From Nevskia sp. (lineage in GTDB: Bacteria > Pseudomonadota > Gammaproteobacteria > Nevskiales > Nevskiaceae): a stretch of 32,159 nt of DNA. A program made the translations under genes and the position numbers. A model generated the notes under the pieces. That model was not told the origin of the DNA, ran no database searches, and saw only the letters and a list, made by a program, of their open reading frames with translations. Of the stretch, positions 24,439 through 29,657 are shown piece after piece. Position 1 is the first letter of the stretch. Each line of letters opens with the position of its first letter. The stretch is taken from the NCBI GenBank assembly GCA_030694365.1, contig JAUXYM010000069.1, positions 1 through 32,159 of the forward strand. The letters are read 5' to 3'.

Positions 24439-24714
24439 ATGAAGCAGCTTGCGATAACCCTCAAACCCGACGTGCCCTGCGACCTTGGCGCGCGCCTGAC
24501 CTTGCTGGTCACCGAACTGGCGGACAAGTGGCTGGCACCGGATCGCAGCCCGCTGACCCAAGCGTCCATCCTGCTGATTACCCGTCACCGCTCGGTTCTG
24601 ATCGTGCTGACCTCGCATGATCCGTTGGCGTCGTGGCGGCAGTATGAGTTCTGGTATCTGGGCGCGCGGCCGTCGGAAGTGAGGTTGTCGATTCGGCGGA
24701 AACAGGATTGTTGA
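24439..24714 (+). CDS. Small protein of unknown function
   Basis: 91 aa; not recognised. It reads as a small soluble alpha/beta protein (MKQLAITLKPDVPCDLGARL, ASILLITRHRSVLIVLTSHD, YEFWYLGARPSEVRLSIRR) with no signal peptide or membrane helix. The start at 24439 keeps the dyad before it free; 24433 would add two residues. It follows the DUF475 gene by 108 nt and faces the DoxX-like gene. The product looks like a real folded protein by its alternation of hydrophobic and charged residues, but the support is moderate. Confidence 0.55.
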   Translation: MKQLAITLKPDVPCDLGARLTLLVTELADKWLAPDRSPLTQASILLITRHRSVLIVLTSHDPLASWRQYEFWYLGARPSEVRLSIRRKQDC

Positions 24715-24830
24715 GGGCTGCGTTGGCTGGGAGGCCTGGCTTGATCCGCCTGCGGTTTCTTTTGTTGACGTCGGTGCACTATTCCGCGCTTTTGCAGGGA
24801 TAATTTTCTTCAAACACTGATTCAAAAATT

Positions 24831-25322
24831 CTAGGCCGGCATCATCGGCCGGCGAATGCCGATCAGCCCTAGCAACTGGTCGCGACGCAGGAAGGCAATC
24901 AGCGCACAGCACAGCCAGACCAGGCAGGCCATCGCGAACAACTGGCCGCCATCGAAGCTGCCATCGGCATTGCGCACCGACACGCCGAGCGGCGTGAACA
25001 GATGGAACATGATCGCGCCGCTGATCACGCCCAGACCGAGCAGCGCACCGAGGCCCTGGATGCGCGGGCGGGCAGCCAAGGTGCCGAACAGGATCAGGCT
25101 CGATGCGACCAGTTCGGCGGAGCCGACGACATAGGCGCTGAACAAACCGCCCGGCGCGAACAGGCCGGGGAAGCCGAGGCTGGCCGCCCAGGGATCGAGC
25201 TTCTCCTCGAAGATGTAGATGGTTTCGACGTTGCGGGTGAATTTGTAGAACAGCGATTGCACGAACATGAAACAGACGAACAGCGCCGGCAGCTTGATGG
25301 CGTGTTTCCGGATGAAGTCCAT
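24831..25322 (-). CDS. DoxX-like integral membrane protein
   Basis: 163 aa with four transmembrane helices (about 10-28, 62-82, 88-108, 126-146). FMFVQSLFYKFTRNVETIYIFEEKLDPW near the N-terminus and GSAELVASSLILFG and GVISGAIMFHLFTPLGV are typical of DoxX-like proteins, whose members often take part in oxidative-stress or redox-linked membrane complexes; the exact role here is unknown. AGGAG seven nt before the ATG supports the start. A 40-nt element 111 nt upstream is shared with the YHS gene pair, which suggests common control. It is followed downstream by the convergent small unknown gene. Confidence 0.85.
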   Translation of the reverse strand: MDFIRKHAIKLPALFVCFMFVQSLFYKFTRNVETIYIFEEKLDPWAASLGFPGLFAPGGLFSAYVVGSAELVASSLILFGTLAARPRIQGLGALLGLGVISGAIMFHLFTPLGVSVRNADGSFDGGQLFAMACLVWLCCALIAFLRRDQLLGLIGIRRPMMPA

Positions 25323-25393
25323 GAGCTTGCTCCTGTGGCACCGGTGGCCCCTGTGGGCCGGAGCCTGCAGCTTGCGCGTCGGCGACGGCCGCA

Positions 25394-25433
25394 GCCAGTG
25401 GTCTGCGTACAGGCTTTGCTACCGATCGTTCAT
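25394..25433 (-). promoter_or_regulatory. Shared 40-nt element, copy 1 (upstream of DoxX-like gene)
   Basis: On the reverse strand it begins ATGAACGATCGGTAGCAAA, identical over 19 nt with the copy at 28884-28923, and ends ACTGGC in both. The two copies agree at 33 of 40 positions without gaps. Its first base is 111 nt from the DoxX-like start codon. It is too short to encode a protein (MNDR then stop). A promoter or operator for a common regulator fits best. Confidence 0.6.
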
Positions 25434-25470
25434 CGTCGCCATGCGGCCGGCAGCCCGGCTTGCAGGCCGC

Positions 25471-26577
25471 TCAGAACCAGCGTTCGCCGCGCTTCATGTC
25501 GGCCCGCCACAGCTTCAGCAGGTCGATGAAGCTGATCGTCGGCTCGCCCGCTGCGGCATTGGCTTCGCCGATCTCGATCGCCAGCTTCCACTGGGCGATC
25601 ATCGCGCGCCACGCGGTCAGCAGCGGCGTGCCCGGATGGTAGATGTGAGCCGATTCGGCGGTGACGCCGTTCATCTCCATCACCTTGATGCCGCGCCCGT
25701 TGCGCAGCGCTTCGTCATCCGGGCAGCGCAGGTCGATACGGCCGAAGTGATAGCCGGGCACGGCGTCGACGATCGCGGTCATCGCCAGCCGCAGCGGCTC
25801 GGTTTTCAGTGCATGGCCGTCGAGAAACAGCGAGCCTCGGCAATGGGCGCCGATCTCGACCAGCGGCACCACTTCCCCATCGGCCGGAACGTCATCGAGC
25901 CTGCCGGCGAAACGCTGGAACAGGCCCGCGGCGATCAGCCGGGCACGCGAGTCATCGAGGATCAGCTCGCCGAGCGAGTGGCGGCCGTCGCCGGTGACGG
26001 TCGGGAAGCACTTGTTGACGATCGACAGCAGTTCGACTCTCGCGGTCTTCGGATCGCGGTAGACGAATACGCCGAACTCGGCACCGCTGATATGCCGCTG
26101 GGCGACCACATCATCCAGCGCCGCAGCAAGATAGTCCGCCCCCTGCGCTTCGCTGCGGATCACGGCAACCCCGCGACCGCGCTGGCCGATATCCGGCTTC
26201 AGCACCAGCGGATAACCCGGCCCCGCCGCGACGAAACGGCGCAGCGCTTCGAGGCGTTCGGCGTGCGACAGGGCCACCGGCAGCATGGTGAACTCGGCGA
26301 CGTAGTCCGGTGCCTTGGCCTGCAGCGGCTGAAGCGCGTCCTGCTTGGTCTCGCCGACGATGCCGCTGGCCTTCAGGCAGGGATTGGCGGCGGTCACCGC
26401 CATGAACGGCGTGGCCCGTGCCGAGCGGGCAAAAATGTAGACGACGATCGGCGGATAGAACGCCCAGGACGGCCAGAATTCCCAGCGCGCGAGCCGCGAC
26501 AGCTGGATGCCGAGCCGATCACGCCAGGTGGTCTGGAAGCGCGCCGTGGCCACCGGTTCGGCCGCCGGACTGTTCAT
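25471..26577 (-). CDS. ATP-grasp family ligase-like protein
   Basis: 368 aa. The enzyme class joins a carboxylate to an amine, thiol or other nucleophile through acyl phosphate. A hydrophobic stretch (about 32-50, WEFWPSWAFYPPIVVYIFA) lies near the N-terminus and might contact membrane. ATP-grasp features: LVLKPDIGQRGRGVAVIR (ATP-binding Lys and Gly loop, about 150-167), GAEFGVFVYRDP, and the metal-binding Glu-x-Asn in IKVMEMNGV (about 302). No D-Ala-D-Ala ligase or glutathione synthase signature fits well, so the substrate is unknown. It is the last gene of a leftward unit after the membrane and DinB-like genes (46-nt gap). Confidence 0.85.
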   Translation of the reverse strand: MNSPAAEPVATARFQTTWRDRLGIQLSRLARWEFWPSWAFYPPIVVYIFARSARATPFMAVTAANPCLKASGIVGETKQDALQPLQAKAPDYVAEFTMLPVALSHAERLEALRRFVAAGPGYPLVLKPDIGQRGRGVAVIRSEAQGADYLAAALDDVVAQRHISGAEFGVFVYRDPKTARVELLSIVNKCFPTVTGDGRHSLGELILDDSRARLIAAGLFQRFAGRLDDVPADGEVVPLVEIGAHCRGSLFLDGHALKTEPLRLAMTAIVDAVPGYHFGRIDLRCPDDEALRNGRGIKVMEMNGVTAESAHIYHPGTPLLTAWRAMIAQWKLAIEIGEANAAAGEPTISFIDLLKLWRADMKRGERWF

Positions 26578-26623
26578 GGTGGCCGGTCGCCGAAGCCGAT
26601 CAAGCCGCCCATCAGACCCATGG

Positions 26624-27139
26624 TCAAGCCTGGTGCTCGCGCTCGTAGCGGAGCGTCGCGGCCGCCTTGCCGACGCTTTCGGGCAGGGTCAGGCCCTGCG
26701 GCTTCAGCACCAGACGCAGCAGCGCGTAGTGGTGAACGGCATGACCGGCGACGAACAGCAGTTCGCGCAGCGGGGTTGATCCGCTGACGAAGCGGTCAGC
26801 GCCGGCCACGCCGCCATCGAAAGCCACGGCGATGGTTTCCGGCCACGGGCGATCGAGCCGCGCCGTCAGGCCTTCGGCCAGACGTTCACAACGGGCCTTG
26901 GCGATGCCCGGGTCACGCTCGACGCTGCGGTCCCGGCTGCGGTTGTCGTAGTCGACGACGCCTTGATCGATGCCGGTCAGCAGGGCTTCGTAGTGCTCGA
27001 TGATGTGGCGCAGATGCGGGCCGATCTGCTCATCGAAGCGCAGGCCCGCGCGTTCGGAAATTTTGGCGATGCCAGCGCCCTGGCGGAGCATGTCGATCGC
27101 ATAGGAAACGGCGCGGCCAAGCGGGTCACGCGCGTGCAT
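26624..27139 (-). CDS. DinB-like metal-dependent hydrolase-fold protein
   Basis: 171 aa, a four-helix bundle protein. Three His match the DinB/YfiT metal triad: one in PHLRHIIEHYEALL (about 42-55) and two in FVAGHAVHHYALLRLVL (about 129-145). DinB-type proteins act as thiol transferases or hydrolases with bacillithiol, mycothiol or glutathione; members in gammaproteobacteria are untested. ATG 27139 has an excellent GGAGGT site 4 nt upstream, inside the 3' end of the membrane-protein gene, which it overlaps by 14 nt. Confidence 0.8.
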   Translation of the reverse strand: MHARDPLGRAVSYAIDMLRQGAGIAKISERAGLRFDEQIGPHLRHIIEHYEALLTGIDQGVVDYDNRSRDRSVERDPGIAKARCERLAEGLTARLDRPWPETIAVAFDGGVAGADRFVSGSTPLRELLFVAGHAVHHYALLRLVLKPQGLTLPESVGKAAATLRYEREHQA

Positions 27140-27605
27140 GCGGACCTCCGAGCGGAGTCGTCGCGGCCACGGGCCGGCAGCGTTTCAGCGCCAGCGTCCA
27201 GGCATCGTCGGCATTCTCTCGATACATCAGCATGGAATAGATAACGGCGAAACCAATGGTCGGCGCCAGGCCTGGCGCCAAGGTCAGCAAGATACTCGGC
27301 GTGCCAATGAACAGATGCACGCTGATCAGCAGGGTGTAGGTAAGCGTCAGGCTGCCGGTGATCGCCAACAGCGCGCCGCGTTTCGGCGTGCTGGGCAGCC
27401 AGAACAGCGCGCGCATCAGCGCAACGCAGCTCATGGTGATGATCACGCTCATCGTCCAATGCGCCACGCCGATCAGCACGGCACGCGGCCAGCCGACGTG
27501 GCGGTTCACGAACAGCGCCCAAAGGCCATAGGCCATCGCCCCTAGAACAGCGCCCAGCGGGCTGTCCATCAGGCGATAAAGGCCTCCCGGAAAACGATCT
27601 CGCAT
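27126..27605 (-). CDS. Integral membrane protein of unknown function, first gene of a three-gene unit
   Basis: 159 aa. Four transmembrane helices are visible (about 15-33, 42-65, 80-100, 107-127). The segment LIGVAHWTMSVIITMSCVALMRALF has no family I recognise. The C-terminal tail (about 130-159) is hydrophilic and cytoplasmic. GGAG 8 nt before the ATG supports the start. It overlaps the DinB-like gene by 14 nt and heads the unit with the ATP-grasp gene. The 230-nt region upstream (27606-27835) has no gene and includes an AT-rich stretch near 27755-27780. Confidence 0.75.
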   Translation of the reverse strand: MRDRFPGGLYRLMDSPLGAVLGAMAYGLWALFVNRHVGWPRAVLIGVAHWTMSVIITMSCVALMRALFWLPSTPKRGALLAITGSLTLTYTLLISVHLFIGTPSILLTLAPGLAPTIGFAVIYSMLMYRENADDAWTLALKRCRPVAATTPLGGPHARA

Positions 27606-27835
27606 CCCTCACAACTCCGAACGAGCGCCCTGTGCGCCGTTATGACCTACCTTGCCGCCAGGGACTCAGCACGGGCTATACCCGGAAGGTCCGAATTCAT
27701 GCTCGATCCTGCCTGTGACTTCAGGTATCAGGATCCAGCAGCTAAGCGGGTGTTATTTGAGCAATATTCTAACTTGCTTGCGCCATCGTCCATGCCTGCT
27801 CCCACGGACAGCGCGCAGCGGCAACTTCGGCGGGC

Positions 27836-28315
27836 TTACTCGGCTTCGGCAGGCGCTTTCAGCAGACCGCTGTATTGCCTGTCCGCAGCCGCCTTGTAGC
27901 CGGGTATGTCCTTCTGCCACAGCTTGCTGACCTTCTCGTTGTAGTTCAGGTACAGCTTGCCATCGACCACCGACCAGGCCGATGGTTCGGTCGGTGCCAG
28001 ATGGCCCTTGGCGGTGCCATAGGCGCAGTAACCGCCGTACTGCGGCGCGTATTTCGCCGGCTCGGCCTTGAAGCGATCGAGATTGGCCTGGCTGGCGAAC
28101 TTCCATTTCGCGCCCATCCAGTCGGTGGCGAATTCGTCGCGTCCCGGCGTCGGCTTGCCGTCGACGAAGTAGGCGACCGGGTCATAGCCGCGGATCGCGA
28201 CACCGCCCGGTGCGAACACCGCCGACGCCGCACCGGCGATCATCGCCGACGACAGCCCCACCAGCAATAACACGGCTGAGAGGCCCCGAAGAACTTTCTC
28301 CAGTATCCGGTTCAT
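27836..28315 (-). CDS. Exported YHS-domain protein, copy 2
   Basis: 159 aa from ATG 28315 (28321 adds two residues). An N-terminal signal or anchor helix (VLRGLSAVLLLVGLSSAMIAGAASA) leads to a YHS-like domain: IRGYDPVAYFVDGKPTPGRDEF, WKFASQANLDRFKAEPAKYAPQYGGYCAYG. The YHS domain binds metal or heme-like ligands in some proteins, though the Cys pair typical of the classic YHS motif is reduced here to one Cys in GGYCAYG. LYLNYNEKVSKLWQKD follows. It lies 11 nt after copy 1 with a AAGGCGGA site before the start, so both are made from one transcript. Confidence 0.88.
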   Translation of the reverse strand: MNRILEKVLRGLSAVLLLVGLSSAMIAGAASAVFAPGGVAIRGYDPVAYFVDGKPTPGRDEFATDWMGAKWKFASQANLDRFKAEPAKYAPQYGGYCAYGTAKGHLAPTEPSAWSVVDGKLYLNYNEKVSKLWQKDIPGYKAAADRQYSGLLKAPAEAE

Positions 28316-28326
28316 GGCCATCCGCC

Positions 28327-28809
28327 TTATTTCTTGATCACGGTGTCAAACGTGGCATCGGCCTTCTTGATGTATCCCGCCTTGTCCTTCTTCCACTTCT
28401 TCGATACGTCGTCGTCGTAGTTCAGATACAGCTTGTCATCGACGATCGTCCATTGATCCGGCTCGATCTTGACCACATTGCCGACCGCGATGCCGTAGGC
28501 GCAGTAGCCGCCGTACTGCGGCGCGTATTTCGCCGGTTCGGCCTTGAACTTGTCGAGGTGATCCTGGCTGGCGAACTTCCACTTCGCGCCCATCCACTCA
28601 TGGACGAACTTGTCGCTGCCCTTCACTGGCTTGCCGTCGGTGAAATAGGCGACCGGGTCATAGCCGCGGATCGCGGTATCGGTGCGCTTCGGATCGCTGA
28701 AGTAGCCGCCGCCTTCGCCGAAGGTATTGATCGCCGGTGCCGCGAATGCCGGGCCGACAGCGGCCAGGCCGAGCAGCAGAGTGGCTGCGAGCTGCTTGAT
28801 CGAATTCAT
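28327..28809 (-). CDS. Exported YHS-domain protein, copy 1
   Basis: 160 aa. A clear signal peptide (MNSIKQLAATLLLGLAAVGPAFA) precedes a YHS-like domain: IRGYDPVAYFTDGKPVKGSDKF, WKFASQDHLDKFKAEPAKYAPQYGGYCAYG, then WTIVDDKLYLNYDDDVSKKWKKDK. GAGGAG before ATG 28809 supports the start; longer forms lack a signal peptide. It is a tandem paralogue of the next gene; the shared blocks are nearly identical in the APKYAPQYGGYCAYG region. Proteins of this type are periplasmic and occur near stress-regulated envelope genes, with no proven activity. Its upstream region carries copy 2 of the 40-nt element 114 nt before the start. Confidence 0.9.
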   Translation of the reverse strand: MNSIKQLAATLLLGLAAVGPAFAAPAINTFGEGGGYFSDPKRTDTAIRGYDPVAYFTDGKPVKGSDKFVHEWMGAKWKFASQDHLDKFKAEPAKYAPQYGGYCAYGIAVGNVVKIEPDQWTIVDDKLYLNYDDDVSKKWKKDKAGYIKKADATFDTVIKK

Positions 28810-28883
28810 GTTGTTCACTCCTCGATGCGCGGAACACGGTCCGCCATTTGATGACCGCATGATCCTCGCGCAGGACAGCCAAG

Positions 28884-28923
28884 GCCAGTTGACGGCGTCC
28901 GGCTTTTGCTACCGATCGTTCAT
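28884..28923 (-). promoter_or_regulatory. Shared 40-nt element, copy 2 (upstream of YHS genes)
   Basis: The reverse strand begins with the same 19 nt (ATGAACGATCGGTAGCAAA) as the DoxX-like copy and ends ACTGGC. It lies 114 nt from the YHS start codon, against 111 nt for the other. The distance points to a promoter or operator, with the transcript leader below it. Confidence 0.6.
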
Positions 28924-29031
28924 GGCGCGCCGATCCAGCGGCTCCGAACCAACGGCAAGCTTTTAGATTGCGCTCACTCTCTGATCTTTCATATCGTCTC
29001 CCGCCCACCACAGCCAACAGACCCTAGAACC

Positions 29032-29340
29032 ATGATTGCGAACGCAGCGTTTGACCAGATCATCAACAACGGCGGTCATTTCGATGGCAGCGATGGGCAG
29101 CGGCAATTCGTCATTTCTGCATTCGTGACGGCACCGTGGCCGCGATTTCGGCCACGCCGATCGACGAAACCGGCTGTCCCGAAGTCATCAACGTGGCGAA
29201 CCTTCAAATGCTGCCCGGCTTTCTCGATACCCACAGGCAATCTGGGCTGGCCCGCAGGCCCAGGCTCAAGGAGAGCGTGCGTCGTGGCGTCACCACAGTG
29301 ACCTTCGGCTTGTGCTCCATCGCGCGGTATCAGAGCGATT
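29032..29340 (+). pseudogene. Decayed amidohydrolase (D-aminoacylase-like) N-terminus
   Basis: The forward strand from ATG 29032 reads FDQIINNGGHFDGSDG, and after a frameshift near 29105 continues CIRDGTVAAISATP, NLQMLPGFLDTH and VRRGVTTVTFGLCSIA. This is the pattern of amidohydrolases of the N-acyl-D-amino-acid deacylase type: first strand with DG, RDGxIxAI, PGFxDTH, GVTTVxFG. The metal-binding HxH has become THRQ. About 90 codons remain of a normal 480-500, so it is a remnant. Relationship is from pattern memory; exact family not proven. Confidence 0.6.
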
Positions 29341-29657
29341 TCCTGCGCCTGCGCCTGCGCCTGCGCGCGAGCCGCGAGGCTGAGTTGCGCCTGGCGCTTG
29401 AAGCGTTGCTGCCGCGGTGCGCCGCCGGGTCGTCGAGGATCAGGCGCTGGCGACACTGCTGCTGCCGGAAGTGGCGCGGGCGCTATTGGACGGTACGGCA
29501 TCGACGCCCTGAAACAGTGCGTCAGCGCACGGAAGTCAAGCAATCCTAGGCTCTTTGAGTCACGCGACTGCCGGCCTCGTTCAACTATCATTCCAGCATC
29601 GTCTTGCTGTGATTCCGCGCGAGGCCGAATGCACCTGCCGGCACGCGCCCATCCCTG
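29341..29657. other. Non-coding/degenerate stretch before the GGDEF-EAL gene
   Basis: No intact gene is seen. It opens with short CGCCTG repeats (29345-29370). It then has a fragment (REAELRLALEALLPR, then in another frame VVEDQALATLLLPEVARALL, ending with a stop near 29513) that looks like former coding sequence of unknown source. The last 140 nt are the leader of the GGDEF-EAL gene; TATCAT at 29587-29592 is a possible -10 box without a convincing -35. Confidence 0.35.

Follow-up and report, generated by a model that had tools for sequence, protein, structure and literature searches.

A clade-restricted element shared by the upstream regions of a YHS gene cluster and a DoxX-like gene in Nevskia

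The window examined here is a stretch of 32,159 nucleotides from Nevskia sp. (GenBank assembly GCA_030694365.1, contig JAUXYM010000069.1). Its minus strand carries a gene cluster that opens with two genes for YHS domain-containing proteins and closes with a gene for a DoxX-like membrane protein, and a short conserved element stands upstream of the first YHS gene (YHS1) and again upstream of the DoxX-like gene (DoxX). In the direction in which they are read, the cluster genes are the following (G and L numbers denote individual genomes and loci).

28327..28809, minus strand: YHS1, YHS domain-containing (seleno)protein family (Pfam PF04945, NCBIfam NF041384), judged by eye to be exported from its N-terminus
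27836..28315, minus strand: YHS2, tandem paralogue (PF04945 and NF041384, matched on the open reading frame (ORF) 27836-28321)
27126..27605, minus strand: MP159, by eye a small membrane protein, without a family match and at the same cluster place in 9 of 9 genomes
26624..27139, minus strand: DinB-superfamily-like protein (DinB), itself without a match; the G011 orthologue matches PF12867 weakly (E 0.0047, below cut-off)
25471..26577, minus strand: ATPg, ATP-grasp-like, with no Pfam match and weak NCBIfam matches (best cyanophycin synthetase, E 7.7e-7, far below cut-offs)
24831..25322, minus strand: DoxX-like membrane protein, with no Pfam or NCBIfam match at E 0.001; the G011 orthologue matches PF07681 at E 0.0022, below cut-off

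Judging from these matches, the DoxX-like protein appears only weakly related to Pfam DoxX.

A first-pass annotation of the window, made from the letters alone, had drawn attention to two similar 40-nt blocks before YHS1 and DoxX. The 19-mer ATGAACGATCGGTAGCAAA at their head does occur exactly (0 mismatches) at 25433-25415 and 28923-28905 on the minus strand, and the blocks are equal at 33 of 40 bases without gaps (hand count). They start 111 nt 5′ of the DoxX ATG (25322) and 114 nt 5′ of the YHS1 ATG (28809), as had been reported. By the accepted gene calls, both copies are intergenic and have the same orientation as the genes they precede, and YHS and DoxX are indeed non-homologous. No third place for the 19-mer exists in the window at up to three mismatches, and 100 dinucleotide shuffles gave 0 matches. 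Across the whole assembly (3,084,992 bases, 89.4% complete), the same tolerance returned only the two known places, with 0 matches for a reversed control pattern. The observation of two related blocks is correct and far beyond chance.

The element is also kept among relatives. The gene order YHS1-(YHS2)-MP159-DinB-ATPg-DoxX is present in 9 of 18 genomes of the genus, this one included. Aligning the upstream regions of orthologues, a check the first-pass annotation had proposed, placed the element 5′ of YHS1 in all nine cluster genomes and 5′ of DoxX in eight of them, so that it is retained at both genes across the clade. The remaining nine genomes of the genus have neither a YHS1 match at E 0.001 nor the element. 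From the resulting 17 sites we built a sequence model; these sites match it by construction, and what matters is the absence of others. Among 58 genomes of the family, the model scored the 17 sites at 41-52 bits and the next best place at 18.4 bits. Among 85 genomes of the order, it returned at E 0.001 only the 17 sites (in nine genomes), all before YHS1 or DoxX, with the reservation that searches over more than 40 genomes use stricter filters and lose weak matches.

Two sets of further matches were judged to be chance. The exact pattern was found in 11 stretches of an 84,980-species collection, where about 7 matches are expected by simple base counting. Seven are contigs of this clade already known; the other four belong to unrelated bacteria (Oscillospiraceae, Prevotellaceae, Bacteroidia and Hyphomicrobiales) and, after inspection of about 100 bp around each, fit chance. 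In one of these four, where ORFs were examined, the match overlaps a gene that by eye encodes an NADH-dehydrogenase subunit. Genomes G028 and G030 each hold a place with 2 mismatches to an 18-mer of the element, with the rest of the element and the cluster genes absent nearby; the G030 place scores 14.9 bits and the G028 place was not listed by the model. At the same tolerance, the reversed control gave one match in each of 4 of the 58 family genomes. A dispersed repeat or mobile element was rejected, as no copies occur at unrelated places in the own assembly, the order genomes or the 84,980-species collection. The shared block is a real, clade-restricted regulatory element with two sites. The presence of the same promoter-like arrangement at two units, and nowhere else in the genome, suggests that these units are probably switched together by one regulator.

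To resolve the anatomy of the element, we compared columns from -40 to +129 over the 17 sites, with offset 0 at the T of TGAACG. Ungapped, the sites share 22 invariant columns over 63 bp, namely GNACGATNNGTANCAAANNNNGNACG, then CTG, then A-N3-T. The first group comprises offsets 1 and 3-7 (GNACGAT, with A at offset 2 in 16 of 17 sites), offsets 10-12 and 14-17 (GTANCAAA, with G at offset 13 in 16 of 17) and offsets 22 and 24-26 (GNACG); it defines a 26-bp box in which 17 of 26 positions are invariant and in which GAACG and the GNACG repeat lie 21 bp apart. CTG follows at offsets 34-36. The conserved block extends past the 40 nt first delimited, to an invariant A at offset 59 and T at offset 63, the sole invariant columns outside the box and CTG in the range compared. 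The corresponding features in the window are given below.

28896..28921, minus strand: 26-bp box before the YHS pair, GAACGATCGGTAGCAAAAGCCGGACG, proposed activator site (17 of 26 positions invariant, no further sites)
28883..28888, minus strand: -35-like CTGGCC before the YHS pair (CTG in 17 of 17 sites, C at position 5 in 16 of 17)
28859..28864, minus strand: -10-like GATCAT before the YHS pair, after an 18-bp spacer (A at position 2 and T at position 6 invariant)
25406..25431, minus strand: 26-bp box before DoxX, GAACGATCGGTAGCAAAGCCTGTACG, proposed activator site (from the column comparison and the model search)
25393..25398, minus strand: -35-like CTGGCT before DoxX (from the hexamer comparison over sites)
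25369..25374, minus strand: -10-like CAAGCT before DoxX, after an 18-bp spacer (from the invariant A and T columns)

The layout CTG[G/T]C, 18 bp, NANNNT is consistent with a -35/-10 pair of the sigma-70 type. In the -35-like hexamer, T, G and C match positions 2, 3 and 5 of the consensus; relative to the TTG core, TG is invariant and the first base is C in 17 of 17 sites. In the -10-like hexamer, A at position 2 and T at position 6 are present at every site. Shuffling the downstream stretch 20,000 times never produced an invariant A-N3-T, and neither did 20,000 rotations of it; any invariant column at all arose in 11 of the shuffles. These tests were run on 11 thinned rows (the 17 sites minus those of the close genomes G011, G018 and G025). 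If the -10 assignment is right, the box would span about -69 to -44, with its three blocks near -66, -56 and -46, spaced by roughly a helical turn and phased with the -35 hexamer. Such a placement is the layout of an activator site; both the activator and the start sites are predictions.

We therefore propose, on balance, a pair of activator-dependent promoters of the housekeeping type rather than alternative-sigma promoters. The element would form the regulatory half of two sigma-70-type promoters, one for YHS1(-YHS2-MP159-DinB-ATPg) and one for DoxX. A transcription activator would bind the box on the same face of the DNA as RNA polymerase, the three blocks being about 10 bp apart, and would compensate for the poor -35 and -10 hexamers. 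Transcription would start about 7 nt behind the -10 hexamer, near 25362 and 28852 on the minus strand, leaving leaders of about 40 nt in the window. In this way, one regulator could control the DoxX-like membrane protein jointly with the YHS proteins. Taken whole, with twin activator-dependent promoters, one shared regulator and an origin by rearrangement (discussed below), this explanation seems to us somewhat better than an even bet.

Several observations weigh against it. The hexamers in the window are poor (-35 CTGGCC and CTGGCT, -10 GATCAT and CAAGCT), and a simple scan of 24700-29100 found no sigma-70 promoter with at least 9 of 12 consensus bases, which lowers any claim of a strong, factor-independent promoter. 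Instead of a -10 hexamer, the two conserved columns may mark part of a more extended protein footprint. The genomes that supply the 17 sites are related, four of the nine closely, and the sites do not amount to 17 independent observations. G016 lacks the DoxX copy; there, DoxX follows ATPg after a short, element-free gap. Finally, the window holds no obvious DNA-binding regulator, as the first-pass annotation had noted: among the Pfam matches of 28 scanned ORFs (27 of 28 chosen plus one in an alternative frame, at E 0.001 or 1e-5) there is no helix-turn-helix family. Those matches include a sensor kinase, a GGDEF-EAL protein and enzymes, and nine other proteins, some of them in the cluster, had none.

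The first-pass annotation had favoured a common promoter for an alternative sigma factor, or else an operator. The general part of that proposal is strengthened by clade-wide conservation at both genes, by the position on the coding strand at promoter distance and by the -35/-10-like pair that follows. The alternative-sigma part has become less likely. In that reading, the element would be a promoter for an extracytoplasmic function (ECF) sigma factor, with GAACG as -35 and GNACG as -10, 21 bp from start to start. In its favour, GAAC is frequent as the -35 core of ECF promoters, the spacing roughly fits, and a set of just two targets is what small ECF regulons look like. The strongly conserved GTAGCAAA would then fall in the spacer, however, and A59 and T63, which fit a sigma-70-type -10 hexamer, would be left unexplained. 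The genome has 10 matches to Sigma70_r4_2, about six of them ECF-like by eye. We compared these with the PF08281 matches of five other genomes, having fetched 68 of the 78 listed (17 of 17 for G017, 19 of 23 for G020, 10 of 11 for G015, 13 of 17 for G024 and 9 of 10 for G027). In this partial sample, no ECF-like factor of the genome has good orthologues in G017 and G020, which carry the element, yet is absent from G015, G024 and G027, which do not. A sigma factor of a wider regulon shared by all genomes, such as RpoE, would be compatible with this result. None of the 17 strong sites precedes a sigma gene, which argues against ECF autoregulation, and upstream alignments of four of the roughly six ECF-like genes revealed no similar motif. 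We consider an ECF promoter improbable.

Position alone fails to separate an activator site from that of a repressor, and the distance to the start codon varies among the YHS copies (the GTAGCAAA block lies 102-171 nt 5′), as might be expected of an operator or other protein site not tied to a transcription start, copied during rearrangement and kept for another reason. Against this stand the spacing to CTG and A-N3-T, which is fixed in 17 of 17 sites, and the weak hexamers, which suggest activation; we think such a site quite unlikely. Still further down in probability, and in our view barely credible, is an element acting at the RNA level in leader transcripts, such as a processing site or a target of a protein or small RNA. 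The copy before DoxX follows ATPg on the same strand, and read-through may carry transcription across it, but RNAalifold predicts 0 pairs over the 17 sites and the -10-like pair lies 3′ of the element.

A more specific form of the activator-dependent promoter reading names the regulator. In 7 of the 9 element genomes, a large winged-helix/Ser-Thr-kinase/TPR protein is encoded directly behind DoxX (Pfam assignment from the G011 copy), and these seven locus copies (clade A) fall on one side of a branch with support 97/96. One-component regulators of this architecture are found at 9684-12323 of L049 and at the same place in L050-L055; they evolve fast and reach at least 16 matches in a genome, with scoring limited to 16 candidates in each. 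OmpR-type wings commonly recognise tandem repeats presented on the same face of the DNA, and the GAACG/GNACG repeat at 21 bp would suit such a protein, as would its position behind DoxX and its grouping on a single branch. In the window and in the G025 stretch, the locus yielded no match to it, though each retains both boxes intact; the best-matching copies in the two genomes, whose assemblies are each about 90% complete, belong to a second clade (clade B). The kinase at the locus is thus not needed for the box to persist, unless clade B substitutes for it. Judged by eye, the box is less variable than the wing domain, which also differs between the clades. Related kinases turn up, at E 1e-10, in 54 of the 58 genomes of the family, and the majority of these genomes have no box. 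It is doubtful that the neighbouring clade A regulator binds the box, and the fuller version, in which clade A acts at the locus and clade B replaces it in this genome and G025, is equally doubtful. We know of no defined DNA site for this class of regulators; if the assignment were true, it would be the first, and would tie these kinases to YHS and DoxX-like envelope proteins.

How the twin copies arose can be approached through gene order. At 12 YHS loci of the family outside the genus, DoxX lies downstream of YHS in 11 within the fetched stretch (with a gap of about 600 nt in two of the 11 and close in the rest), and ATPg is directly upstream of YHS in 10. In the Nevskia clade, YHS stands at the front of the cluster, and the DoxX copy of the element sits where YHS stands elsewhere. 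The earlier statement that duplication does not explain the shared block is therefore too strong: since YHS and DoxX are mostly neighbours in other genera, their upstream regions may have a common history. Within eight genomes, the YHS and DoxX copies are identical at 0.77 of positions in the element and at 0.41 in the spacer (0.31 when shuffled), and their flanks are at background (upstream 0.26 versus 0.23 shuffled, downstream 0.29 versus 0.27). An older form of the box was not found near YHS in the other-genera loci L059-L063 with filters off (best 10.2 bits; YHS starts are approximate). A single upstream region that was duplicated or split is a fair explanation of the twin copies. They would have arisen in a Nevskia lineage when the older order ATPg-YHS-DoxX was rearranged to YHS-...-ATPg-DoxX, each part keeping its own copy, and the twin promoters appear to go with a rearrangement of this old gene cluster that is specific to Nevskia. 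The neighbourhood of YHS and DoxX in other genera also supplies a reason for their co-regulation.

Some features of the cluster bear on its function and limits. A second YHS gene directly behind YHS1 is present in only 3 of the 9 cluster genomes (this one, G016 and G017), at 27836-28315 of the window and at loci L051 and L052. In two other-genera genomes, a gene for an AhpC/TSA-type redoxin precedes MP159-DinB-ATPg-YHS-DoxX (L061 3851-4534 and L062 4007-4672, the Pfam assignment having been checked for L061), hinting at a redox role. A YHS domain-containing protein appears in a review's table of prokaryotic selenoproteins (PMC9312934). A redox or metal-related role in the envelope is plausible. 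At the end of DoxX we noted one weak feature.

24834..24850, minus strand: terminator-like stem and T-run (weak, with 5 such sites in 24700-29100 versus 2.8 expected in shuffles)

On the divergent side of YHS1, the window shows at about 29033-29549 on the plus strand what is by eye an apparent remnant of an amidohydrolase gene, which is a long ORF of 622-627 aa in G011, G017 and G018. Between YHS1 and the GGDEF-EAL gene the window has short ORFs only, one of which was scanned and had no Pfam match. A second conserved stretch, TGCAATCTAAA (AGAGAGTGAATGCAATCTAAA in relatives), lies before YHS1 at about 28960-28990, at a variable distance from the box, and is present in 8 of 9 genomes, G016 being the exception. 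This stretch probably serves the divergent amidohydrolase gene as promoter or operator; in the window, where the gene seems broken, the stretch shows slight changes.

Together, these findings would describe a two-promoter regulon with sharp boundaries in a little-studied genus, in which exported YHS proteins and a DoxX-like membrane protein are joined into a single functional unit, consistent with their adjacency elsewhere in the family. The 26-bp box offers an exact bait for the regulator, and hence for the signal, of two protein families with poorly known roles. Our literature searches found no paper pairing the YHS domain with DoxX or with an ECF sigma factor, Nevskia with DoxX, or containing the letters of the element.

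Two known systems invite comparison. The SigF/NrsF system of Caulobacter is a small ECF-sigma regulon with a DoxX gene among its targets, and resembles the Nevskia pair in having few targets that include a DoxX-like membrane protein; it differs in promoter layout, and no fitting sigma factor emerged from the partial sample in Nevskia. Closer in layout are activator-dependent sigma-70 promoters of the OmpR/PhoB or AraC type, which carry half-sites upstream of a weak -35 hexamer. The Nevskia promoters would share with these a box directly 5′ of the -35 hexamer, blocks about one helical turn apart, a GNACG repeat at 21 bp and poor hexamers. Unlike such sites, the Nevskia box consists of three unequal blocks and not of clean repeats, and to our knowledge no named box matches its sequence. 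The element is of a familiar kind, and its box and regulon appear to be new as far as our literature searches show.

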